A stretch of 38,951 bases of DNA from Balneolaceae bacterium (GCA_007694035.1 RECM01000150.1:1-38951), one strand, 5' to 3'. Shown: positions 10,898 to 25,510, counted from the stretch's first letter. A program made the numbers and translations. Notes: a model not told the origin generated them from the letters alone.

Positions 10898-13567
10898 TCA
10901 GTTCCTGGTTACCAGAAGTTCCTCCAGCTTTTCCCGCAGCCTCACAACATCGAAATGTTCACTGCTGCCCGTATGTTCAAACAGTTCAACTGCCTCTCTG
11001 AGGTGCTGTTCGGCAACATCCAAATCGCCGCGCTGCTGGTACAAACGGCCCAGGGCAGCAATCACCAGTGCGCCGGAGTTCTCACCATAATGTTGTGTCT
11101 GAATTTCCAGGGCCCTTGTGAACAGGCTGTCGGCTTCATCAAATTTTTGCCGGTCAACAAGTGTATTGCCGAGGCTGACCATGGCCCCGCTTACGGCTAT
11201 GTGGTCCGGCCCAAGTAGCGTCTCCCATATCCCCAGGGATTTCCTGAGGTAGTATTCCGCTTTTTCATGGTCACCCATACGGCTGTAACCACTGGCGAGA
11301 TGGCCAATCCCTTCAGCCGTAGATGGATGCTGCTCACCATAAATCTGCCGACGGATCATAAGGCCTTCCAGGTACAGTTCTTCTGCGGCGGCATGATCCC
11401 CTTTATCAGAAAGAAGTGTTGCCATGCCTGACAACCCATGCAATCTTGAAACGTGAACTTCACCCAAAACCTCATCCTGAATAGCAAGGGCTTCTCTGTA
11501 TAGTTTTTCGGATTTCACCGGGTCCATATTGTAGAGCCTGTACACATCCGCCATAAAAATCATGCTTTCGGCAACATCCGGGTGGACCGGCCCCAGTTCG
11601 TTTTTCCGAATCTCCATTGCTTTGCCAAAGAGATGAATTGCCTTTTCCGGATTGGCCCTGCTTCGCTCAATCTGCCCGACTCTCATATAGGCATCGGCCG
11701 TGAGCAGATGGTTTTCGCCGTATAACGCTATTCTGATTTCAAGTACCTTGTACCGTAGTCGTGTGGATTCTTCAAATCCGGTTACCGGTATCCAGGAACC
11801 CATCAGAGCCATTGTATTGGCCACTTCGGGGTGCTTTTCACCATACTGACTGATCAGGATATCCAGGGATTCCGTGTAGAGGGAGTAGGCTTCCTGATAT
11901 ATTCCCTGCCGTGTGAGGGCTACGGCAAGATCGTTCATATACCGGGCTGTTTCTGTTCCGGTGTCGCCGGAGAAACCGCGCTGAATATCGACCGCCTTTT
12001 CCAGGATTTCCACGGCATCATGGTACCGGCCGAGGCTTGTATAGACCTTGCCGATTACATTGAACATATTTGCCTGGAGCTCCGGCTGGTTGTCAAGGCG
12101 GTTTGCTTCACCGAGACCACGCTCCAGTAGCTCCCTTACGGTGATCTGATCACCCGGATTAACACGAGGGTCGCCAGCCCTGAACATGCCCAGCATAAAT
12201 TCAACTACCTGAGCCGATTTATCTGCCTCGCGTTGCGCTTCATCCAGAGCTGCGTGTGTTATTTGCGTGTGCCAGGTAATGGTGATTATATACGCGGCAA
12301 GCAGTATAAATACCAGCACCGCCGCCGTTATTTCAACCGGGTTTCGGCGTATATATTTTTCAGCCCTGTACAGTTTTGTTTGGGGATGAGCCAACACAGG
12401 TTTTTTTGCCAGGTATCTTCTGATGTCGGTTGCCAGCTGCTCAGCCGAATCGTACCGGCAGTCGGGTTCCTTTTGCATGGCCTTCATCACAATGGCATCA
12501 ACATCACCGCGCAGTTGCCTGCGGAGTTGGCTTACGGCTGTATCTCGGGCTTCACAAATCTGCAGAAGATCTGATGTGCTGGCAAGCCGTGAAAGACCGC
12601 TCTGAGTCAGACGTTTCCCGGGGCATAACGGTTCGCTGTCACATATGGTCCGCTCCAGCTCTTCCGGCGAATCCCCTTCCAATTTATATGGCTGGAACCC
12701 AACCAGCAATTCATACAGAACTACGCCGAGCTGATAGATGTCGGAAGCCGTGGTGATCGTCTCACCCCGTACCTGCTCCGGGCTTGCGTATGATGGCGTA
12801 AGGGGCTGGAATCCCTGCCATTCCGGCTGCAGATCGGGCAGTGGAGTACCGCCTGTTAATTCTCCGCCGTTTCCTAGCACTTTTGCGATTCCAAAATCGA
12901 GAAGCTTCACGCTGCCTTCATTCGTTACCAGAATGTTCGACGGTTTCAGGTCCCTGTGAACCACCAGTTTGCGGTGTGCATACTGAACGGCGCTGCACAC
13001 ATCCTGAAACAGTTCCAGGCGTTCATGTACAGTGAGCCGCTTCTCATCACAATACTCATCTATCGGTTTCCCATCTACAAATTCCATTACATAATAGGGC
13101 TGCCCGTGGTCGGTAAGCCCTCCGTCGAGTATCCGGGCAATATGATCATGTTCCAGTGAGGCCAGAATCTGGCGTTCGCTTTTAAAGGCCTTAACCTGCG
13201 ATTCTGATACGAACGGGCTGTGCTGAAGCTTAACAGCCGTGCGCTGAACATACTCACCATCAGCCCGTTCGGCCAGGTACACACTTCCCATACCACCATG
13301 CCCCAGATCATTGATGATTTTGTATTTGCCAATCATCCTGCCCAGCATCAGGTTGCTTCTGGCCAATGAAATAGCCGACATTCTGAGATTGTGCATGGGC
13401 TGGTCGAGCGTTCCGGGCACTTCATGGGAATCAAGTAACGACAGTACTTCACCCATCAGCTCACTGTCGCCTTCACAGATTTTATCCAGGTAGCGGGCGC
13501 GGTCATCCTTTTCAAGCATGAGCGCCTCCGAAAAAATACGTTTAATTTTGTTCCAGCGTGATTTCAT
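10898..13567 (-). CDS. Transmembrane Ser/Thr protein kinase with C-terminal TPR array
   Basis: 889 residues. The N-terminal leader (about 1-50) is the short helical segment that precedes kinases of the sigma-linked group. The kinase domain spans about 78-370 and is catalytically intact: glycine loop GHGGMGSVY (89-97), Lys113, HRDLKPSN (204-211), DFG (224-226) and the substrate-binding block SYASPEQ. A single membrane helix follows near residues 410-435, then about 430 residues of TPR repeats with the recurring Tyr-Gly-Glu-x-His-Pro pattern (YGEKHPEVANTMA, YGEQHPSTAEGI). Topology therefore puts the kinase in the cytosol and the TPRs outside. It starts 37 bases after the stop of the ECF sigma gene and is surely co-transcribed with it. 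The partner bound by the TPRs is unknown. Confidence 0.95.
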   Translation of the reverse strand: MKSRWNKIKRIFSEALMLEKDDRARYLDKICEGDSELMGEVLSLLDSHEVPGTLDQPMHNLRMSAISLARSNLMLGRMIGKYKIINDLGHGGMGSVYLAERADGEYVQRTAVKLQHSPFVSESQVKAFKSERQILASLEHDHIARILDGGLTDHGQPYYVMEFVDGKPIDEYCDEKRLTVHERLELFQDVCSAVQYAHRKLVVHRDLKPSNILVTNEGSVKLLDFGIAKVLGNGGELTGGTPLPDLQPEWQGFQPLTPSYASPEQVRGETITTASDIYQLGVVLYELLVGFQPYKLEGDSPEELERTICDSEPLCPGKRLTQSGLSRLASTSDLLQICEARDTAVSQLRRQLRGDVDAIVMKAMQKEPDCRYDSAEQLATDIRRYLAKKPVLAHPQTKLYRAEKYIRRNPVEITAAVLVFILLAAYIITITWHTQITHAALDEAQREADKSAQVVEFMLGMFRAGDPRVNPGDQITVRELLERGLGEANRLDNQPELQANMFNVIGKVYTSLGRYHDAVEILEKAVDIQRGFSGDTGTETARYMNDLAVALTRQGIYQEAYSLYTESLDILISQYGEKHPEVANTMALMGSWIPVTGFEESTRLRYKVLEIRIALYGENHLLTADAYMRVGQIERSRANPEKAIHLFGKAMEIRKNELGPVHPDVAESMIFMADVYRLYNMDPVKSEKLYREALAIQDEVLGEVHVSRLHGLSGMATLLSDKGDHAAAEELYLEGLMIRRQIYGEQHPSTAEGIGHLASGYSRMGDHEKAEYYLRKSLGIWETLLGPDHIAVSGAMVSLGNTLVDRQKFDEADSLFTRALEIQTQHYGENSGALVIAALGRLYQQRGDLDVAEQHLREAVELFEHTGSSEHFDVVRLREKLEELLVTRN

Positions 13568-13604
13568 AAGATGCAGCCTAACACAGCGGCCTGCACACCA
13601 GCCG

Positions 13605-14165
13605 CTATACGTTTTTCAATTCGCGGTTCAGCCAGGCCCGTGCCATTTTCCAGTCGCGGCTAACGGTTGGTTCAGACATACCCAGTGTGTTCGCCGTTTC
13701 TTCTATGGTAAGCCCGCCAAAGAAACGGCACTCCACAACTTTAGCCTGCCGCTCATCCAGCTTTTCCAGGCGCTGCAGTGCATGGTCTACCGATATAATA
13801 TCGTCCAGGCTCATTTCCTCTTTTAAGTGCTCCTCATCAAGGGTAACCCTGTTTCTTTTTCCACCGCGCTTTTGCACCTGGCGTTTCACGGCATAATCCA
13901 CAAGAATATTTCGCATTACCTGCGATGCCATACCGAAAAAATGATACCTGTTTTGCCAGTCGATCCTGTTGAAGTCGACCAGTTTGAGATACGCTTCATG
14001 CACAAGAGCCGTGGCGCTGAATGTGTGGTCAGGACGCTCACCTATCAGCCGTCCCCTGGCTATTTTGTGCATTTCGCTGTATACCAGTGGTATAAGCTCA
14101 TCAAGCGCATTCTGATCACCGGAGGCGTGGGCCTGCAATAACTGTGTAATCCGGGATGTATCCAT
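13605..14165 (-). CDS. ECF-family RNA polymerase sigma factor, kinase-associated (TIGR02999 type)
   Basis: 186 residues with sigma-70 regions 2 and 4. Region 2 has the signature ALVHEAYLKL and FFGMASQVMRNILVDYA, which marks the TIGR02999/Sig-70 group found next to Ser/Thr kinases in Bacteroidota and Planctomycetota. Region 4 has LDERQAKVVECRFFGG followed by the helix-turn-helix IEETANTLGMSEPTVSRDW. No anti-sigma factor gene is adjacent; instead the next gene is a kinase, so phosphorylation rather than anti-sigma sequestration is the likely control (known for the group, inferred here). The ATG sits 60 bases from a strong palindrome at 14225-14252, possibly the operator or promoter region of this operon. 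Confidence 0.93.
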   Translation of the reverse strand: MDTSRITQLLQAHASGDQNALDELIPLVYSEMHKIARGRLIGERPDHTFSATALVHEAYLKLVDFNRIDWQNRYHFFGMASQVMRNILVDYAVKRQVQKRGGKRNRVTLDEEHLKEEMSLDDIISVDHALQRLEKLDERQAKVVECRFFGGLTIEETANTLGMSEPTVSRDWKMARAWLNRELKNV

Positions 14166-15512: not shown

Positions 15513-16535
15513 ATGACTAAATATCAGACAAATAGCGTTCAGCTGATACACGACTGGCATGAGTTTTCAGAAATCGGCAGAAAAATACGTGAGAAAAATG
15601 GTCTTCAGGATACAGTCGCGGACCTGAACCCTGTAGAATCATACAATTTTACCGGCCATGCCTGCTGGACAGTTGAAACAAAGCATCACAGTGCCCGTGT
15701 TACCGCATTTTATCATCCGGATTTTTCTGATGGCTTTCTGGGCTGGTTTGAAGCCACAGACGATCCTGAACTCTCAGTAAAATTGCTTTCGACTGCGGAA
15801 GGGTGGTTCAGAGAGCACGGCATTAACCATATAGCCGGACCGGTGAGCGGACTCACTTGGGATGCCTACCGATTCAATCTCAATGATGGATTGGCCCTGT
15901 TTCACGGTGAACCTGCCCAACCCGCTTTTTATGTGAATCATTGGAAAACTGCAGGGTTCCGGGAACGTCATCATTACTATAGCAAGGTTTTACCGGTCAA
16001 AAAAGATGAAGGCCTGACCCATAGCGAATTGGAATCCCGAATTGCCGGACAGAGGCTGAAACTGATTCCGGTTAATGCAGACACCTTTCCTGAGTACCGC
16101 TTCGGCGTCTATGAATTATTAATTCGCTGTTTCCGGTCTGTGGCAAATCCATTCTTCACCGAGATCAGCTTTGAGGGTTTTTGCAGCCGCTACAATCCGC
16201 TTATAAATAAGCTGCCGGCTGGATTTTCATGGCTGGTTGTCGATGAACGAAATGATCCTTGCGCATTCATGCTGAATTATCCCTCACCTATGAATCCAGC
16301 CACAGGCTTATCGGGCAACGCACTGGTTCACAAATCGCTTGGTGTTGATCCGGATCATCAGGGCGCCGGTCTCGGTTCCATGCTGACCCGTTTTGCCATG
16401 CATATCGCCGCCAGCCACAATTTAAAGTACCAGATCCACGCCCTGATGTACGAAGAGAACCCGTCTTTACGATTGTTAAATTCTCACGAACCAGTCCTCA
16501 CCCGGTCATACAGCCTGTTTGAAAAAACGATTTAG
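15513..16535 (+). CDS. GNAT-family acyl/acetyltransferase with degenerate first module
   Basis: 340 residues, cytosolic. The C-terminal half is a GNAT module: the acyl-CoA pyrophosphate loop is LGVDPDHQGAGLGSML (Gln283-Gly-Ala-Gly-Leu-Gly288). The N-terminal half has the features of the YghO-like group (GFLGWFEATDDPELSVKLL, an AEGWFREHGI helix, a glycine-proline turn IAGPVSG, and an NHWKTAGF segment), which look like a first, catalytically degenerate GNAT module. It is the first gene of the plus-strand cluster and lies 123 bases ahead of the adenylating enzyme. In that context it may acylate an amino group made by the pathway; this is inference. A simple N-acetyltransferase unrelated to the cluster is the alternative. 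Confidence 0.85.
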   Translation: MTKYQTNSVQLIHDWHEFSEIGRKIREKNGLQDTVADLNPVESYNFTGHACWTVETKHHSARVTAFYHPDFSDGFLGWFEATDDPELSVKLLSTAEGWFREHGINHIAGPVSGLTWDAYRFNLNDGLALFHGEPAQPAFYVNHWKTAGFRERHHYYSKVLPVKKDEGLTHSELESRIAGQRLKLIPVNADTFPEYRFGVYELLIRCFRSVANPFFTEISFEGFCSRYNPLINKLPAGFSWLVVDERNDPCAFMLNYPSPMNPATGLSGNALVHKSLGVDPDHQGAGLGSMLTRFAMHIAASHNLKYQIHALMYEENPSLRLLNSHEPVLTRSYSLFEKTI

Positions 16536-16658
16536 ATAGCGAACCCATCCCCCTCTTCTATAGAACTATCATATTATATCCATTACACAACACCCTAAGT
16601 TCTCAAAATACCAACCATTTCTCAGCCTGTCGTCTCAACCTATATACGAGAAAACTGA

Positions 16659-18170
16659 ATGATCTCTCTCATCTCCCCTTTCCTGAACCACTCACAATCC
16701 AGGCCAGATGCTCCGGCATTGATTGACCGGGGCGGACATGTAATTACCTACGGCGAATTGTACGTACGGGCTTGCCGTCAGCAGAAATTATTACGCCGGA
16801 ATGGTGTTAGGCAGGGAAGCAAGGTTTTGGTGGCCGTACCCATGTCGCCGGATTTATATGCCTGCCTGATCGCATTGCTGGGTTTGGGAGCGGTCTCCAT
16901 ATTTCTGGATCCCTGGCTCGGAGGGCGGACCATGAACCGTATCATCCGGAAAGTGCAGCCCGACGTGCTGCTCGCCACGCCGAAACTGCGAATGCTCTCA
17001 ATGCTGATGCCGGCCTCACACAATATCCCTCACAGAATTTCACCCGCGATTGGCCACGATACTACAACCGACTTAACGGATAGCGTGCCGGATGAAGAGG
17101 ATACAGCTCTTGTTACATTCACCGGCGGCACTTCGACCGGAAAACCGGCGGGAATCCGGCGCACTTACGGCATACTGAACGCCCAGTTAAACTCGCTGCA
17201 GTACTTGCTCAAAACCGGTCAGCACATCCGTAGCTTCACCCATTATCCGGTATTCGGTCTGCTGGACCTTGCCCTGGGCAACACATTGATCATTCCGGAC
17301 TTCAACCTGCTGAAACTGCATAAAGTCGGCGCGCAACAGCTTGTTGAACAACTCGCGACATCCCGGGCCGACCGCCTGATCTGTTCACCCCTGCTGCTTC
17401 GAAAAGTGATGGAGCATACCGATAAAACACGCATTAACCTGTCCATTACCTCCATATTCTGCGGTGGAGCCAGAGTTTCGCGGCTTTTGGCCCGAAACAC
17501 TCTGCAAACATTCGGCCCTGTCGCAGCTACAGCCATCTACGGTTCCTCGGAAGCAGAACCGATTGCCCACACCTCTTTCGAGACACTTGCCGGCAGTGAT
17601 CACGATCCGCTGGAGGGTGTTCTTTGCGGATCACCTGTTGATGAAGTGAATTTACGTACGCTGCCGGTTGGTGAAAATCCGGAGGCACTCCGGAATGCTG
17701 CAGGGAATTCATCCCGGCCTGGCGAGATTATCGTCAGTGGCGATCACGTTGCACGCGATTACTATATGGATGAAGAAGACCGTTTCAGCCACAGCAAGAT
17801 TAAGGACGAAAACGGAACCATCTGGCACCGAACTGGTGATGTGGGCACCCTGAAAAATAATATCATCTACCTGATGGGTCGCCGTGAGGGCATCATCACC
17901 TATAAAAATGAGAAATTTTACCCTTATCCTGTAGAGGAGTATTTCGAAGTTCATTACCTGTATACCGACCTGGCATATCTTCAGGATACGGAGGGTCGTT
18001 GCTGCTTCTGCCTGGGGAGCGGTATTAAAGGTGATAACTCCGAAATAAGAAAATCATTCAGGAAAATCGGTTATCCTCTCGACCGGATACATCTCTTCAG
18101 GAAACCGTTGCCACGCGATGCCAGGCACCGCAGTAAACTTCTTGAGACTGAGTTAAGGAAATGGATATGA
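16659..18170 (+). CDS. AMP-forming adenylating enzyme, OleC-like (ANL superfamily)
   Basis: 503 residues. It activates a carboxylate with ATP. The ANL motifs are present: P-loop TGGTSTGKPAG (155-165), YGSSEAEP (294-301), RTGD (391-394), the hinge region GRREGIITYKNEK (407-419) and the C-terminal catalytic lysine at about Lys493 in RHRSKLLETEL. Two blocks, FLDPWLG (82-88) and HYPVFGLLDLALG (195-207), resemble the olefin beta-lactone synthetase OleC group more than acetyl- or long-chain acyl-CoA synthetases. No OleA, OleB or OleD is near. The substrate may be a fatty acid, a hydroxy acid or an amino acid. It lies between the GNAT and UbiA genes, 42 bases before the latter, so it is probably in the same transcript. 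Confidence 0.88.
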   Translation: MISLISPFLNHSQSRPDAPALIDRGGHVITYGELYVRACRQQKLLRRNGVRQGSKVLVAVPMSPDLYACLIALLGLGAVSIFLDPWLGGRTMNRIIRKVQPDVLLATPKLRMLSMLMPASHNIPHRISPAIGHDTTTDLTDSVPDEEDTALVTFTGGTSTGKPAGIRRTYGILNAQLNSLQYLLKTGQHIRSFTHYPVFGLLDLALGNTLIIPDFNLLKLHKVGAQQLVEQLATSRADRLICSPLLLRKVMEHTDKTRINLSITSIFCGGARVSRLLARNTLQTFGPVAATAIYGSSEAEPIAHTSFETLAGSDHDPLEGVLCGSPVDEVNLRTLPVGENPEALRNAAGNSSRPGEIIVSGDHVARDYYMDEEDRFSHSKIKDENGTIWHRTGDVGTLKNNIIYLMGRREGIITYKNEKFYPYPVEEYFEVHYLYTDLAYLQDTEGRCCFCLGSGIKGDNSEIRKSFRKIGYPLDRIHLFRKPLPRDARHRSKLLETELRKWI

Positions 18171-18212
18171 CCACAGATTATTAATCACAGATTCACCATT
18201 TGGCGGATACCA

Positions 18213-19121
18213 TTGAACCGTGCCCAGGAACATAGATCAGCACAACATACCGGCAGTATACCGGTCCGGGTAAAACTGTGGCGCTACCAGAAAGAACGCT
18301 TTCCGGTTATCCTCTATGCCCTGCTCATACTGCTCACGCTGCTTACCGCGGGATTCGACCACCTGAAATCTGTTTCATTCGATATTATACCGGCGTTTCT
18401 GCTGTTCATGCTGTTTTTCTGGCGGCTGAGGCTATTTGATGAGATCAAGGATTATGAGCAGGACCTGAAGTGGCGCCCGGAGCGTATCGTAGCCCGTGGT
18501 GAGATTACACTCCCGGAAATTAAAACCTGGCTGGGCGTCACTGTCGTGCTTGAGATTGCTCTGCTCTTTTTCCTGCCTGTTAACGTGGTAATCTGGTATG
18601 CTGCCACCGCTTTCTACTCCCTGTTGATGTTTTACGAATTCTTTGCACATACGTGGCTTAACAGGCATTTTATCGTATACGGACTCAGCCATATCGTGAT
18701 TATGCTTCCCCTTGCAATGGCCATGAGAGGGGTGTTTATCGATCCACTGTACGATGAAACCGGACTGGTGCTGGCAGGCGGAATTCTGGGGATGTCGTAT
18801 GTTCTGGAGACCGGACGTAAACTTTGCCGGGAGCATGAGGAACAGAAAGGTGTAGAAACCTACTCATCCAGGCTGGGTATCATAGCAGCAGTACTCTGGC
18901 TTATAGCCTGGATCGTGATTACCCATGTCTGCTTTTTCCTTGCCATACAATCTGCACAGGTATGGATTGCTGTAACCGGTGTGCTGATGGTACTCATTGT
19001 GGCGATCCGGGTAACCCTGACCAATGCACCCCTGCGGGGATTCATGGAAAATCTTATCGGTGTCTATATGCTGGTCTTTTATGCAGGTGTAATCGGAATC
19101 ACGATATTCAACGCATCATAA
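18213..19121 (+). CDS. UbiA-family membrane prenyltransferase
   Basis: 302 residues with about eight hydrophobic segments. The first Mg-diphosphate motif reads RLFDEIKDYEQD (Asp76, Asp80, Asp84), followed by RPERIVARG (88-96), the analogue of the usual RPxxxG turn. The second motif is not the classical DxxxD; it is ETGRKLCREHEEQKGVETYS (199-218), which is the E-x-x-R-K / G-V-E-T-Y-S version of one UbiA subgroup. It should transfer a polyprenyl group in the inner membrane to an acceptor that cannot be named. The only in-frame start that keeps the N-terminus is TTG at 18213, with GGCGG just upstream; no ATG or GTG is available before the first helix. The gene ends six bases before the PEP-synthase-like gene. 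Confidence 0.88.
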   Translation: MNRAQEHRSAQHTGSIPVRVKLWRYQKERFPVILYALLILLTLLTAGFDHLKSVSFDIIPAFLLFMLFFWRLRLFDEIKDYEQDLKWRPERIVARGEITLPEIKTWLGVTVVLEIALLFFLPVNVVIWYAATAFYSLLMFYEFFAHTWLNRHFIVYGLSHIVIMLPLAMAMRGVFIDPLYDETGLVLAGGILGMSYVLETGRKLCREHEEQKGVETYSSRLGIIAAVLWLIAWIVITHVCFFLAIQSAQVWIAVTGVLMVLIVAIRVTLTNAPLRGFMENLIGVYMLVFYAGVIGITIFNAS

Positions 19122-19127
19122 AGGCCC

Positions 19128-21800
19128 ATGAAACCGACCTCCACATCACACAGCGATATACAGGCCGGCGGCAAAGGCTCCCGCCTGCTGCAGATGCAAA
19201 TGGCGGGTTTCCGTGTCCCGCCACTCAGAATAGTACCCCCCTCATTTCAACTGAACTGGCTGCACAGGCTGGATCTGGTTACCGACTACATCCGCTATTT
19301 TAAAAGTGAAGAGCCGGCCGGCAATCTGATCGGTAAGCTGAAGAAATCCCGGTGGACCGATCAGGAAACCGAACAGATTCTGGCACTTTACCGCGAGGTG
19401 AGCGATGATGGTAAATACCCTGTATCGGTACGCTCGTCCGGATTAATGGAAGATCTTCCCGGATATTCTTTCGCCGGCCAGTATGAAACCGTGCTCAACA
19501 TCACCAGCGGGGATGATGTATCCGAGGCAGTCCGGACCTGTTTGATATCGCCCCTGAATGAACGGATTCGGGAATACATCCGCTACCACCACTTGCAGGA
19601 TGTTTTCCGCCCGTGGATGGCCCTTGTAATCCAGAGAATGGTTTCGGGCGAGACCTCAGGTGTGCTCTTTTCCTGGAATGTGACCGCGCAAAAACCGGGT
19701 TTTGTGGTAAGTGCCGGCTACGGGCTTGGCGAGGGTGTGGTTTCGGGTAAAGTGGAAACGGATGAATGGGTATTTGATGAAAACAGGAACCTGATCAACC
19801 GGACGATTGCCAGTAAGACCAACCGAATGATCAGCCGAAGCGATGGCAGTGTTATGTTGGAAAACGTACCCGGCAAGGAGCAGGATGAACCCTGTATTTC
19901 AGAAATCCGGATGCGGACACTGCTGGATGAGGGCCAAAAACTGACTGACCATTTCGGGAAGCCACAGGATGTGGAATTCACCATCGCCGGTGGTGAGCTG
20001 TATCTGCTGCAATCCAGGGATGTAACCCGCATCGATCAAAACGGTCAGAAGGTCATTTTCGACAATTCCAATATTGTAGAGAGCTACTCGGGCGTAACTA
20101 CGCCATTGACCTATACATTCATTCGTCCGGCCTATGAGCAGGTTTACCGGCAGTTTTTCGATCTGATGGGGGTCAGGCCAAAGCAGATTGACAACCGGCG
20201 GCGGGATTTTGCCACAATGGTCACCTGGATCGACGGCCGGGTTTTTTACAATATGAATTCATGGTTCAGGGTACTCTCCCTGCTGCCCGGATACCAGTTT
20301 AACCGGTCGGCCATGGAAGATATGATGGGTGTTCGCGACAAGGGCAATTTTGAACACATCGAAACTCCGCCATCCTATACAGGACTCAAAAAGCTGACCC
20401 ACGGACTGCCTCAGATCTTGTACCTGATTTACCGGCTGATCCGCAATATTGTTCTGAGCCAGCGGATCACAGACCGGTTCAACCATCTGTTTCATACGAT
20501 TTTTGATGACCTGGAACAGCAATCCCTTGACGCGTATAACTCCGTCGATCTGGCCAATCTCTACTGGAAACTCGAGGAGGAACTGCTGAAGAACTGGAAA
20601 GCACCCATAGTCACAGATTTCAATGCCATGATCTTTCATGGTATGCTGAAAAAGCTGTCCGAAAAGTGGCTGCCGGATGAGAAAAAGGGACTCACCAATG
20701 ATCTGCTGGTGGGTCTTGGCAATGTGGAGAGCGCCGAACCCACCCGGCTGCTGGTAAAAATGGCGGAAACCTGCCGTGAACACCCGGAAATAGTCGAGAA
20801 GCTCAACCTGCTGGATCATGAGGAAGTGGCCGTCCGCTATTTGGTCGATCCCGATTTTGATCCCATCCGCGGCATGATTGAAGACTATTTGAGCCGGTTT
20901 GGGTACCGCTGTATTGGAGAGTTGAAACTCGAAGAGAGCACGGTACGCGACAATCCGGCCTTTCTGTTCCGTATGATCTGGCATTTTCTGCAATCTGGTA
21001 CCACCAACTCGGGCATGGAAGAGCAGGAAATGAAGAAACGCGCACAGGCAGAGGCCGATCTGAAAAACCATCTTGGCGGGTTCCGCCGTCTTTTCTACCG
21101 CCAGGTACTCAATCAGGCAAGGAAACACATCCGCAACCGCGAAGACCTGCGATTTAACCGAACCCGCATCTTCGGCAAGATCCGTGAAATATTCCGCGGT
21201 ATTGGCCGTGAAATGGCCGCCAACAAGCTTATTGATGATCCCAAAGATGTGTTCTACCTCACCCGCGATGAACTGCTCGGCTATACCGATGGCACGTCGC
21301 TGGTGCGTGATCATAAAAAACTGATCGCACTCAGAAAAGAGGAGCGGAAGCTAAACCAGACCCAGCAAGTCGAAGATCATTTTGAAACCCGGGGAGCCGT
21401 AATGGTAGCCAGGGATCAGTGGCTGAGAAGAGAACCACAAAACACCGACGGTCTGCGTTCTCTGAAGGGAACAGCCTGCTCACCGGGCCGCGTAAAGGGA
21501 GAAGTCATAGTAGTACGTTCGCCGGCCGATCAGATTGATGTTCGGGGCAAAATTATGGTGGCCGAGCAGACCGATCCGGGATGGGTACCCCTGTTTCCGC
21601 TGGTATCGGGACTGCTGGTTGAACGGGGCGGATTGCTCTCACATTCGGCTGTTGTTGGCCGGGAAATGGGCATTCCTACCGTCGTAGGCCTGCGCTACCT
21701 CACCCAGATCCTGAACAGCGGCGATCTGGTCGAAATGGATGGGTCAACCGGGGAAGTTACCATACTGAACCGGAAGGATGCGGACGAGAACAAATCCTGA
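19128..21800 (+). CDS. PEP-synthase/rifampin-phosphotransferase-like dikinase
   Basis: 890 residues. An N-terminal ATP-grasp (PPDK_N) domain spans about 14-305: GGKGSRL (14-20), VRSSGLMEDLPGYSFAGQYE (101-120), VQRMVSGETSGVLFS in register, and LYLLQSRDVT at its end. A helical middle domain follows, then a C-terminal phosphohistidine swivelling domain with GGLLSHSAVVGREMGIPTVVG, where His839 is the catalytic residue. The TIM-barrel PEP/pyruvate domain of true PEP synthase is missing, so the order and length match rifampin phosphotransferase. It should move the beta-phosphate of ATP to His839 and then to a small hydroxyl acceptor, giving AMP and Pi. The start has AAAGG overlapping the UbiA stop. 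Acceptor unknown; a cluster intermediate is the likely one (inference). Confidence 0.9.
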   Translation: MKPTSTSHSDIQAGGKGSRLLQMQMAGFRVPPLRIVPPSFQLNWLHRLDLVTDYIRYFKSEEPAGNLIGKLKKSRWTDQETEQILALYREVSDDGKYPVSVRSSGLMEDLPGYSFAGQYETVLNITSGDDVSEAVRTCLISPLNERIREYIRYHHLQDVFRPWMALVIQRMVSGETSGVLFSWNVTAQKPGFVVSAGYGLGEGVVSGKVETDEWVFDENRNLINRTIASKTNRMISRSDGSVMLENVPGKEQDEPCISEIRMRTLLDEGQKLTDHFGKPQDVEFTIAGGELYLLQSRDVTRIDQNGQKVIFDNSNIVESYSGVTTPLTYTFIRPAYEQVYRQFFDLMGVRPKQIDNRRRDFATMVTWIDGRVFYNMNSWFRVLSLLPGYQFNRSAMEDMMGVRDKGNFEHIETPPSYTGLKKLTHGLPQILYLIYRLIRNIVLSQRITDRFNHLFHTIFDDLEQQSLDAYNSVDLANLYWKLEEELLKNWKAPIVTDFNAMIFHGMLKKLSEKWLPDEKKGLTNDLLVGLGNVESAEPTRLLVKMAETCREHPEIVEKLNLLDHEEVAVRYLVDPDFDPIRGMIEDYLSRFGYRCIGELKLEESTVRDNPAFLFRMIWHFLQSGTTNSGMEEQEMKKRAQAEADLKNHLGGFRRLFYRQVLNQARKHIRNREDLRFNRTRIFGKIREIFRGIGREMAANKLIDDPKDVFYLTRDELLGYTDGTSLVRDHKKLIALRKEERKLNQTQQVEDHFETRGAVMVARDQWLRREPQNTDGLRSLKGTACSPGRVKGEVIVVRSPADQIDVRGKIMVAEQTDPGWVPLFPLVSGLLVERGGLLSHSAVVGREMGIPTVVGLRYLTQILNSGDLVEMDGSTGEVTILNRKDADENKS

Positions 21801-21903
21801 ACTCTCACCCCGGGACATCACAGAAATAGAAATATCAAACAGAAACGTACATCAGATAAAAGTAATAAGTTAACATCAGCCTGAAAAAATCAATTTAAAC
21901 CGG

Positions 21904-23016
21904 ATGAGTGAGCAACAGTTAACCAGCGAAAAATCCTTTCAGCAGTTACTCTATGCCCAGTGCTGGGAAGATCCCCTTCTTAACCAGAGGGGGCTTGCAC
22001 TGCAGGGTGGTGAAACCGTTGCAGCTATTTGCTCGGCCGGCGATAATGTGTTTGCGCATCTGCTTGATGATCCCGAAACGGTCTATGCGGTTGATTTAAA
22101 CCCATCACAGATTGCTGCTGCCCGGCTCAAAATGCAGGCATTCATGAACCTGGACTGGGAACAGGTTGTCGCTTTTTTAGGCCTGGAAGAGAGCCATGAC
22201 CGCATGGAGACATACCGGTTGCTGATGGGCGACCTTCCCGATGAAGATCGTACGTACTGGAACGCCCATCAGAACCTGATCGGGCGGGGCATTATTCACT
22301 GCGGTAAATTCGAGGGCTATTTTCACAAATTTCAGAAATTTGTATTGCCGTTTACCCACAGCAAAAAAGTGCGGTTACAGCTTTTCGAGCCAAAATCTGC
22401 ATTGGAACGGGCCCGGTTTTATGATTCAAAATGGGACAACTTCCGCTGGCGCATGTTGTTCAGGCTGTTTTTCAACCAGCGGGTTATGTCGCGGTTTGGC
22501 CGCAGCAAGGCCCATTTTGCCCATGTTGGCGACGGCGACATCACCAGGCAGTTCCTGAGTCGGTCGCGAATGGCCATGGTGGAGCTCGACCCGTCTCAAA
22601 ACTGCTTTATGCAGTATATGATCCATGCCCGCTACCTGAACAGGCAAAGCTACCCCGAATACCTGAAACGAGAACATTTTGACACTATCCGTTCACGTCT
22701 GGACCGGGTCAGGTTCATCTCCGCCAGTCTGGGTGGATTTCTTTCGACATGTGATTCCGGCACCGTCGACGCGTGGAACCTCTCCGATATCTTCGAATAC
22801 CTGGATGAAGAGACCTTCAGGAACATCAGCGATGAAATACACAGGGTCTCCCGGAACGGAGCCCGCTGCAGTTACTGGAATCTGCTCGTGAGGCGGCGAA
22901 TGTCGGACATTTCCCCCGGGAAATTCCGTCATCATAAAGAGACATCCCACGACCTGTGGATGCAGGACCGGGCGTTTGTGTATGGAGATTACATATTGGA
23001 AAACGTGCAAAAATGA
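21904..23016 (+). CDS. BtaA-like 3-amino-3-carboxypropyl transferase (DUF3419)
   Basis: 370 residues of the DUF3419 family, whose characterised member BtaA moves the 3-amino-3-carboxypropyl group of S-adenosylmethionine to diacylglycerol to make the homoserine ether headgroup of betaine lipids. The family opening YAQCWEDP (17-24) is intact. The SAM fold follows, with AAICSAGDN (40-48) and VYAVDLNPSQIAAA (60-73). It is shorter than many BtaA proteins and has no fused BtaB-like methyltransferase; no separate BtaB lies in the window. The stop TGA overlaps the ATG of the next gene (ATGA at 23013-23016), implying translational coupling. Aminocarboxypropyl transfer is the family expectation; the lipid acceptor here is unproven. 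Confidence 0.9.
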   Translation: MSEQQLTSEKSFQQLLYAQCWEDPLLNQRGLALQGGETVAAICSAGDNVFAHLLDDPETVYAVDLNPSQIAAARLKMQAFMNLDWEQVVAFLGLEESHDRMETYRLLMGDLPDEDRTYWNAHQNLIGRGIIHCGKFEGYFHKFQKFVLPFTHSKKVRLQLFEPKSALERARFYDSKWDNFRWRMLFRLFFNQRVMSRFGRSKAHFAHVGDGDITRQFLSRSRMAMVELDPSQNCFMQYMIHARYLNRQSYPEYLKREHFDTIRSRLDRVRFISASLGGFLSTCDSGTVDAWNLSDIFEYLDEETFRNISDEIHRVSRNGARCSYWNLLVRRRMSDISPGKFRHHKETSHDLWMQDRAFVYGDYILENVQK

Positions 23017-24482
23017 CAATTGACGAATTGACGACAATCGAGTGGTTCGAAGCCGGAATTATCTCGCTGGCAATATTGTCACTGATGGTTATATCCCAGA
23101 TTATCAGTGTAAAAACCACGATAAATAAGGAATACACCCGCAAGCTGGTGCATTTTGGTGCTGGCTGCATTGTCTGCCTGTTCCCTTTCGTATTTGAATC
23201 GCTGGGTAGTGTTTTTCTGCTGAGTTCGGTATTTCTGGTGATCATGGCAGGCAGTAAAATGCAGCATAAACTGGATGCCGTTCATGAAATCGGGAGGGTA
23301 TCGGCCGGGGCCTTTTTGTACCCGGTAGCCGTGTTCATCATCTTCTGGTTCTCTGGTGGTGATTGGCTCTATTTTCTGGTACCCATGCTGCTTCTCACAA
23401 TATCGGATGCCGCCGCCGCGATTATCGGTAAAGAGTATGGATATATCCAGTATTCAGTAAACCGGCAGACCCGCTCTCTTGAAGGATCCTTCAATTTTTT
23501 CATGATCAGTTTCGTGGTGGTACTCATCCCGGTGCTGCTGTCGCACCAGGTGCAAAACGAGAGTGCGATATTGCTGGCACTGCAGCTGGCCCTGCTGATT
23601 ACCGCCATCGAGTCGGTGAGTGTGTACGGTATAGACAATCTTTTAATACCCGTGGTTGGCTTTGTGGGGTTGTTCTACCTGATGCCTATGGAACCGGCGA
23701 GGCTGATCACCCACATCAGCATACTGGTTTCGGCTTTTATTATACTGCTTGCCGTAAACAAGTGGAAACAGCTCACCATCTCGGGTATCATCGGTTTGTC
23801 GCTCATGCTATACGCGATCTATTCCTGGGGTGGGTGGCACTGGCTGATACCCTCCGTCTGGTACTGCCTCACGTTCAACCTCGGTGTTAAACTGACCGGC
23901 TTCAACCGTCGATCTCTCACAGTGTTATCAAGGGAAAAATCGAACGGACTTTATGAAATATCGGCGGTATTCCATTTATCTGCTGTACCCCTGTTTGTAC
24001 TCGTACTCAACCTGGTATATCCGGCGCCCTATTACTTCAGCCTGTTTATTGCACTGGTGGGTGTGGCCACAGCGATATCCTACTATCAATTCACACCTTA
24101 CGTACTTAAAAAATACCGGGTATCGTCTGTTCCGCGGAAATCAAAACGGTCTCAATTCTTCCGGTTCGCCATAAGTATGATGGGTACATCCGTCATTTAT
24201 GGGCTGGCGGTTCTGAGTGGCAGGGAACTGATGCACAGTATCTGGTCCCAGATCACCGTATCTATGGCGGGAATTCTGTTGATGATCTTCTTTCACCGCT
24301 ACATCATTAAACGATACCGTTGCATGCATTGCGACAGAAAGGTTGTTACACCGGTCCACTGCGGCGAAGATGCCGAACCAATTTCGGGCTATCGTATAAT
24401 CGGAATGTGGCAGGGTGTTTTCCTGACCATGCTGCTCATGGCACTTCTGATGGTGGCTATAAACAGAATGGGCATTGTATAA
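23013..24482 (+). CDS. Dolichol/phytol kinase-like integral membrane protein with Cys-rich tail
   Basis: 489 residues, about a dozen hydrophobic segments. The N-terminal ~200 residues match the CTP-dependent dolichol/phytol/diacylglycerol kinase family: a basic turn ending YTRKLVHFGAGC, and later the nucleotide-site block ISDAAAAIIGKEYG followed by QTRSLEGSFNFF (the usual SDAxAxxxG...KSxEGS). The second half is unlike those kinases: more membrane helices, then a soluble CMHCDRKVVTPVHC stretch (Cys437, Cys440, His449, Cys450) that looks like a small metal-binding knuckle, and a last helix. I took the ATG at 23013, overlapping the BtaA-like stop; a longer frame from 22956 is less likely. It would phosphorylate a lipid alcohol such as a prenol or diacylglycerol (family-level inference). 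Confidence 0.85.
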   Translation: MTIDELTTIEWFEAGIISLAILSLMVISQIISVKTTINKEYTRKLVHFGAGCIVCLFPFVFESLGSVFLLSSVFLVIMAGSKMQHKLDAVHEIGRVSAGAFLYPVAVFIIFWFSGGDWLYFLVPMLLLTISDAAAAIIGKEYGYIQYSVNRQTRSLEGSFNFFMISFVVVLIPVLLSHQVQNESAILLALQLALLITAIESVSVYGIDNLLIPVVGFVGLFYLMPMEPARLITHISILVSAFIILLAVNKWKQLTISGIIGLSLMLYAIYSWGGWHWLIPSVWYCLTFNLGVKLTGFNRRSLTVLSREKSNGLYEISAVFHLSAVPLFVLVLNLVYPAPYYFSLFIALVGVATAISYYQFTPYVLKKYRVSSVPRKSKRSQFFRFAISMMGTSVIYGLAVLSGRELMHSIWSQITVSMAGILLMIFFHRYIIKRYRCMHCDRKVVTPVHCGEDAEPISGYRIIGMWQGVFLTMLLMALLMVAINRMGIV

Positions 24483-24529: not shown

Positions 24530-25510
24530 ATGGCTCTCATACTTCATATCACACTGATAATTCTAGCATGTGCTACTATTGGTTCAGCACAGTTACACCT
24601 TAATATTGAGTCAGCAGTGTATAGTGAACAGAACACATCTCCCGAGAACGCTTTGAAGAATTATATTGATGCCCGCACAAGATTGGATGTCGCGGAAATT
24701 GAATCATTATTGTACCCTCCGGGACGGAAAAATGAATTCACTAATCCAATGTGGATTGATAGTGTAGTAATTGTCAAAAAAATTGAAATTGATCATATAC
24801 TCGCTCAAAAATTAAAACAATCTCCACAGCCAATTATTGGAGATATTCACTTTTACGTTGCGCACTACCGGATGGGTGGCAGGAGATATATGAGTATTTA
24901 TTCACTCAGAAAGTATGAAAACCAGTGGTTGATATATTCGGATGTATTTGTGCGATTCTCCACTTTTATTGAAGAAGAAGAAAACAATGAGATGCCAATA
25001 CAGATTATTTTTACACCACTACAAGGTACCGGCTCGGTAACAGATGAAGATAAATATGTATTCACTGGTGATTATGGTAATAGAATTGAAATAGACGCCT
25101 CCAATTTATTCTACAGGCAAACAGATTATTATGGCAATGTCGACCTGTGGATATATGTTGCTGTCAATAATAATTTTAAACTTGATTATAATGCAGCATC
25201 TTTAAAAATTAACGGTCGTGCAATTAAGTCAATAGGCGAAATGACCTATTATAATGGTTCTATTATGCATTTACCATTCCGAAGAGATGGCGAAAAAATA
25301 TGGGGTTGTATCACCGAGCTTTATGAAGAACACGGTTCCTACACCCCGGAAATTACTGTTCAACTATCATTTCCAATAGATATTAAAACACTCATATCTA
25401 CCAAAATTTGGCAGTTCAGCATGCCAACATTCATGGATTGTGAATCAGATGATCTCTTCTTCCAAAGTCATGAATTTCAATTTGAATCGTACATAAATGA
25501 CTATAATTGA
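24530..25510 (+). CDS. AT-rich secreted hypothetical protein
   Basis: 326 residues; family not recognised. I chose the ATG at 24530 because it starts a clean signal peptide, MALILHITLIILACATIGSA, 47 bases after the kinase-like gene; an earlier in-frame ATG inside that gene gives a nonsense leader. The mature part opens with a helical NALKNYIDARTRLDVAEIES segment followed by a beta-rich body without cysteine pairs or repeats I can name. Its base composition differs strongly from its neighbours: 25081-25140 has 20 G+C of 60, while 27061-27120 in mutS2 has 43 of 60. That suggests recent acquisition. No terminator separates it from the cluster, so it could be read through. Function unknown. Confidence 0.7.
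   Translation: MALILHITLIILACATIGSAQLHLNIESAVYSEQNTSPENALKNYIDARTRLDVAEIESLLYPPGRKNEFTNPMWIDSVVIVKKIEIDHILAQKLKQSPQPIIGDIHFYVAHYRMGGRRYMSIYSLRKYENQWLIYSDVFVRFSTFIEEEENNEMPIQIIFTPLQGTGSVTDEDKYVFTGDYGNRIEIDASNLFYRQTDYYGNVDLWIYVAVNNNFKLDYNAASLKINGRAIKSIGEMTYYNGSIMHLPFRRDGEKIWGCITELYEEHGSYTPEITVQLSFPIDIKTLISTKIWQFSMPTFMDCESDDLFFQSHEFQFESYINDYN

Follow-up and report, generated by a model that had tools for sequence, protein, structure and literature searches.

Known members of the BtaA-like family act on diacylglycerol. The gene cluster described here resembles BtaA/BtaB betaine-lipid synthesis in carrying a DUF3419 (BtaA-like) protein, the expected enzyme for transfer of a 3-amino-3-carboxypropyl group from S-adenosylmethionine (SAM), but differs in that this protein falls in a separate clade and is accompanied by five other conserved partners; among the loci listed, neither a BtaB-like N-methyltransferase nor any other methyltransferase family recurs in the cluster. 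The nearest solved structures of its UbiA-superfamily enzyme, both by profile and by fold, are those of archaeal digeranylgeranylglyceryl phosphate (DGGGP) synthases, yet identity is only 14-15% at a TM of about 0.6, the first motif reads DExKDxxxD rather than NDxxDxxxD, and no archaeal lipid genes lie alongside. Its acid ligase has as nearest curated group the OleC beta-lactone synthetases of the ole cluster, with which it shares a PxDxRHxxK end, but no OleA, OleB, or OleD family recurs in the cluster among the loci listed. Its dikinase, like PigC/RedH and Rph, combines PPDK_N and PEP-utilizers domains without the PEP/pyruvate C domain and keeps the catalytic His, but scores far below the equivalog cut-offs over its full length and sits in a different operon. 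Among published systems the closest parallel is the ebo operon, which includes EboD (a sugar phosphate cyclase), EboB, EboE, and EboF (PMC5133447). It likewise groups six conserved genes, among them one for a UbiA-superfamily enzyme, and has a patchy distribution in bacteria, although a comparison of families finds only that superfamily common to both. Membership in the BtaA/BtaB, ole, PEP synthase, or ebo systems was rejected because defining features of each are missing. A sequence-only reading of the locus had stated that no pathway with this gene set is described, and this agrees with the open-access literature, where no paper describing the set was found (subscription papers and preprints lay outside the scope). 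The cluster appears to be new as a pathway: known systems share one or at most two genes with it, although each enzyme belongs to a known superfamily.

The six genes and their products

The cluster lies in a 38,951-nucleotide stretch of DNA from a Balneolaceae bacterium, the whole of which is referred to as the window, and consists of the following genes:

15513..16535, plus strand: tandem-GNAT acyltransferase (cluster GNAT), 340 aa; Pfam Acetyltransf_1
16659..18170, plus strand: AMP-forming acid ligase, OleC-like, 503 aa; Pfam AMP-binding, 122 bits
18213..19121, plus strand: UbiA-superfamily membrane prenyltransferase-like enzyme, 302 aa, TTG start; Pfam UbiA, 33.4 bits
19128..21800, plus strand: PEP-synthase/Rph/PigC-like dikinase (PEPS), 890 aa; PPDK_N and PEP-utilizers only
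21904..23016, plus strand: DUF3419 (BtaA-like) 3-amino-3-carboxypropyl transferase-like enzyme, 370 aa; Pfam DUF3419, 212 bits
23013..24482, plus strand: membrane CTP-kinase-like protein (dolichol/phytol/DAG kinase type; DolK), 489 aa from the ATG; conserved motifs

The sequence-only reading had proposed six consecutive plus-strand genes with three short gaps (42, 6, and -4 bp) and had assigned each a family. All six open reading frames (ORFs) are intact at these coordinates, the measured spacing from the first to the sixth gene (123, 42, 6, 103, and -4 bp) bears out the three short gaps, and the family assignments of genes one to five are backed by Pfam and NCBIfam searches. For the kinase-like gene, the mechanical ORF opens at 22956, ahead of the ATG at 23013; a start at 23013 forms an ATGA overlap with the DUF3419 gene. 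The gaps of 123 and 103 bp leave room for separate promoters. An Rfam search found no RNA families in the window, and promoter-like sites there were no commoner than in shuffled sequence.

An AlphaFold model of the first protein (pLDDT 86.8) matches tandem-GNAT structures (e.g., 2wpw, 7q3a, and mycothiol synthase), in keeping with its earlier description as a double GNAT. The best NCBIfam relatives of the ligase are PRK09274 and OleC, both far below cut-off (OleC at 112-120 bits, where the cut-offs are 850-900). The window ligase keeps the C-terminal PxDxRHxxK, but its P-loop, at about 17121-17150, carries an inserted residue and the change K164A, both unique among 59 members, because of which its activity is less certain in this strain. 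The UbiA-like protein falls 0.8 bit under the Pfam cut-off of 34.2 bits; its motifs DExKDxxxD and ExxRK...ExxGVxTY are invariant or nearly so, and its model (pLDDT 88.4) has a fold closest to archaeal DGGGP synthase (6m31/7bpu). The UbiA fold and the two acidic metal-binding motifs are thus present, the latter varying from NDxxDxxxD.

For the dikinase, a Pfam search found PPDK_N and PEP-utilizers domains and no PEP-utilizers_C (PEP/pyruvate-binding) domain, scores were below all NCBIfam cut-offs with PEP synthase and PigC/RedH/Rph as relatives, and relatives in the PDB by sequence include 5fbs. Since the ATP-site residues and His839 are conserved in the family and kept in the window, and the C domain is missing, the enzyme resembles Rph and PigC more than PEP synthase. 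The DUF3419 domain is full length (profile positions 3-381 of 385), and the cluster clade shares 25-29% identity with the DUF3419 proteins found outside clusters; a PDB sequence search returned nothing useful. The kinase-like protein matches no Pfam family and no PDB sequence, has a long C-terminal membrane part, and carries RKxxH, DAxAAxxG, and SxEGS motifs, conserved in 18 relatives, which we take to be those of CTP-dependent dolichol/phytol/DAG kinases.

Recurrence of the gene set across genomes

Loci were gathered starting from the DUF3419 gene, yielding at least 80 in the genome collection and 11 in a sample of the phylum. Among the loci listed, 42 had flanks no shorter than 7 kb and 6 kb. 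The sequence-only reading had suggested looking for co-occurrence of the families, and the outcome is positive: among the matches listed, all six families are present in 30 of these 42 well-flanked loci and at least five in 36. Neighbouring cluster genes in the 42 loci have a median gap of -4 bp, and 83% of gaps are 50 bp or less. A profile search of the ORFs of all 80 loci listed, many of which lie on short contigs, detected PEPS in 68, DolK in 64, the AMP-ligase in 56, UbiA in 55, GNAT in 54, and HMG-CoA reductase (HMGR) in 23. Apart from the six families and HMGR, the cluster neighbourhoods of the loci listed hold no gene family that recurs from one lineage to another. Among the matches listed, loci with all six families come from nine named phyla besides that of the window, and cluster-type DUF3419 from 21 named phyla. 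Carriers of the six genes include gut Clostridia, Gastranaerophilales, Verrucomicrobiota, and the culturable Desulfobulbus, Methylomonas, Dyadobacter, and Sphingobacterium. Most carriers are MAGs, and several are isolates. On a Roseinatronobacter plasmid all six genes lie in one run, two of them annotated as hypothetical and matching the DolK and GNAT profiles. Gene order varies among loci, with the pairs UbiA-PEPS, DUF3419-DolK, and GNAT-ligase usually kept; UbiA adjoins the phosphotransferase gene in nearly all loci.

Close to the window genome, the distribution is sparse. None of 10 genus- and family-level relatives has a DUF3419 match, and another family of the same order has only a divergent DUF3419 (~25% identical). 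Among 396 genomes of the phylum, the close form of DUF3419 occurs in 12, window included; of the 11 others, seven, from three families (f13, f20, and f32), carry the full six-gene set and two more carry partial or variant clusters. As a counter-test to the choice of loci by DUF3419, the same 396 genomes were searched with a GNAT alignment. Exactly eight genomes scored above 300 bits, the next best match reaching 135, and all eight were among the 12 with DUF3419 (hypergeometric p = 3.5e-14), the two genes lying on the same contig within ~8 kb of each other. Cluster-type relatives of the GNAT are therefore confined to cluster genomes in this sample. Similarly, every match above 200 bits in a kinase alignment search of the 396 genomes lay inside a cluster. 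Because the pairwise protein distances of the six genes correlate at 0.82-0.96 across 46 loci, a correlation to which species history contributes, the genes have largely diverged together. In the DUF3419 tree, phyla are intermixed and the window protein pairs with a Balneolales sequence to which it is 48% identical, a pairing that hints at, without proving, an origin of the window in that group. The conserved set, its operon-like spacing, the correlated divergence, and the co-occurrence in many phyla uphold the earlier claim that the six genes serve one pathway, which is strongly supported.

HMG-CoA reductase and a sister form of the cluster

In 23 of the 80 loci listed, about a third of clusters, an HMGR gene heads or adjoins the operon, and inspection by eye shows the catalytic motifs expected of its product, with Glu, Lys, Asp, and His. 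Because mevalonate diphosphate decarboxylase reached cut-off in none of 13 genomes with a cluster HMGR, HMG-CoA synthase was present in one of the 13, and IspH of the MEP pathway in 12, the cluster HMGR does not feed the classical mevalonate route in those genomes. A pathway that requires HMGR is ruled out, since in 14 of 16 genomes whose cluster is HMGR-less the enzyme is not encoded elsewhere either. The window operon has no HMGR, and the window genome carries one elsewhere (G000:C193); a role for that gene as the missing seventh member is not supported, since nine of the 10 cluster-less genus and family relatives also carry HMGR. IspH is present in the window genome, with no match there to mevalonate decarboxylase or HMG-CoA synthase.

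A sister form of the cluster was found at loci L037/L127 (identical), L043, L073, L088, and L120, where DUF3419 and PEPS are joined by a phosphatidylserine (PS)-decarboxylase-like gene and a distinct GNAT-like gene, and in most loci by a UbiA variant. Like the frequent HMGR, this form lay beyond the view of the sequence-only reading. No AMP-ligase was found in the sister-form loci, although three of them stop close to the edge of a contig. One can speculate that, should the aminocarboxypropyl group be the substrate of the decarboxylase, the headgroup made by the sister form would be an aminopropyl one. In L037/L127 a DAG-kinase-like gene occupies the kinase slot, a replacement of DolK that fits a lipid-alcohol kinase step, and a DAG-kinase-like gene is also found near the DolK-less cluster L110.

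Proposed product and alternative readings

On balance, we lean toward reading the locus as a dedicated, horizontally mobile operon of three gene pairs whose enzyme families point to a prenyl-containing amino-acid lipid or lipid-like product. The sequence-only reading had proposed a homoserine-type headgroup, possibly N-acylated, on a prenyl or diacylglycerol backbone, a putative chemistry that derives from family membership. The chemistry suggested by these families would most likely yield a prenylated, aminocarboxypropylated, and N-acylated amphiphile. In such a scheme, the DUF3419 enzyme would form a homoserine-type ether by transferring the 3-amino-3-carboxypropyl group of SAM to a hydroxyl of an acceptor; the UbiA enzyme would attach a prenyl chain to an acceptor, perhaps a phosphorylated one; the CTP-kinase-like enzyme would phosphorylate a lipid alcohol; and the PEPS-like dikinase, using ATP by way of phospho-His839, would act on a small acceptor by phosphorylation or condensation. 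Finally, a carboxylic acid activated by the AMP-ligase would be placed on the amine by the tandem GNAT.

In HMGR-bearing operons, mevalonate or another reduced acid or alcohol of that kind is a likely building block, because the other steps of the mevalonate pathway are missing from the genomes concerned. As the substrate of the ligase itself, mevalonate is weakly founded, since the window operon has no HMGR and ligase distances do not track its presence: distances between AMP-ligases separate HMGR-bearing from HMGR-less clusters no better than those of other genes do. Alternatively, the ligase might activate the homoserine unit at its carboxylate; this would fit the absence of the ligase where the decarboxylase is present. 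A precedent, both for the ligase/GNAT pair and for the use of mevalonate, is offered by the fungal mevalonyl-CoA ligase SidI and the transacylase SidF, which act in turn as acid ligase and N-acyltransferase on an acyl group that comes from mevalonate (PMC3709128); the likeness is a functional analogy only, and in the cluster HMGR is optional. The fullest version of the scheme, a widespread new class of lipids with prenyl chains and a homoserine-type ether headgroup, N-acylated by the ligase/GNAT pair and drawing on mevalonate as a building block, not as an isoprenoid precursor, in MEP organisms, we hold to be rather unlikely in all its parts. The tight conservation of the six- or seven-gene cluster over many phyla implies that a common molecule has so far gone unassigned in lipidomics and natural-product research. 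The cluster also gives a context to several orphan families, namely the DUF3419 subfamily, the PEPS-like dikinase, and the long kinase-like membrane protein, as well as to the HMG-CoA reductases of organisms that have no mevalonate pathway.

The operon could instead make a released small molecule rather than a membrane lipid, serving as a signal, antibiotic, or metal chelator; a beta-lactone or a prenylated amino acid would be examples. The patchy, horizontal distribution is typical of secondary metabolism, the ligase and the dikinase belong to OleC-like and PigC/RedH-like families, MMPL-type exporters adjoin some clusters, and MFS and P450 genes lie beside the cluster at L103. Yet no exporter recurs across most clusters, two of the six proteins are multi-pass membrane enzymes, and the DUF3419 protein belongs to a family with diacylglycerol as its known acceptor, so that we consider a released product possible but unlikely.

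Phytol is recycled to prenyl diphosphate by VTE5 and VTE6. By comparison, the kinase and dikinase of the cluster might recycle prenyl alcohols to prenyl diphosphate for transfer by UbiA to an aromatic or quinone-like acceptor, with DUF3419, GNAT, and the ligase decorating the ring. The DolK-like motifs of the kinase-like protein and the position of UbiA beside the phosphotransferase in nearly all loci speak for such a route, but the lack of any recurrent aromatic-precursor gene in the operon, the DGGGP synthases as nearest UbiA structures, and the DAG-kinase-like genes that can accompany DolK-less clusters make it improbable, and the amino-acid lipid or lipid-like product remains the preferred reading.

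That six unrelated genes became neighbours by chance in this strain, as the 123 and 103 bp gaps and the absence of the cluster from the ten nearest genomes might suggest, is extremely improbable and, for the set as a whole, ruled out by the co-occurrence (p = 3.5e-14) and by the same, mostly overlapping, genes in tens of distant genomes, although transcripts could still split the set in this strain.

P-loop of the ligase and genes flanking the cluster in the window

The AMP-forming ligase of the six-gene cluster departs from its homologs in the P-loop, where one residue is inserted and K164 is replaced by alanine, a deviation that no other member of the 59 relatives compared shares. This change may reflect drift, a new specificity, or an assembly error. 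The altered P-loop and the genes on either side of the cluster are as follows:

17121-17150, plus strand, ligase P-loop with one inserted residue and K164A
24530-25510, plus strand (that of the cluster), ORF with a signal-peptide-like start, beginning 47 bp past the cluster
10898-14165, minus strand, ECF sigma factor and protein kinase with many TPR repeats, a pair adjoining the cluster

The downstream ORF had no match in Pfam and is absent from the set of recurrent cluster genes in the other loci compared.

DUF3419 neighbourhoods in other genomes

Loci L037/L127 (identical), L043, L073, L088, and L120 hold a sister form of the cluster, in which DUF3419 and the dikinase are joined by two further genes, one PS-decarboxylase-like and one of a distinct GNAT-like type; no AMP-ligase was seen at these loci. 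A divergent DUF3419 (~25% identical) is widespread in another family of the same order (L003-L013 and further genomes of that family, f4); in the single neighbourhood examined (L048), cluster genes were not found around it. A Verrucomicrobiaceae cluster contains additional genes:

L074:4631-9278, additional protein of 840 aa that carries a class-III aminotransferase domain, together with a second PEP-synthase-like dikinase

MMPL/RND-type exporters lie within or adjoin some clusters (L064, L073, and L079), and similar proteins also occur in L043, L070, and L098.

HMG-CoA reductase in the window's own genome

The genome from which the window derives encodes HMG-CoA reductase (L131) elsewhere:

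G000:C193:2998-4539, HMG-CoA reductase with an additional N-terminal part

Directly downstream are fliS and fliD. IspH is present in this genome alongside the reductase, while searches of the same genome returned no match for HMG-CoA synthase or mevalonate decarboxylase. HMG-CoA reductase was also found in most relatives within the family.
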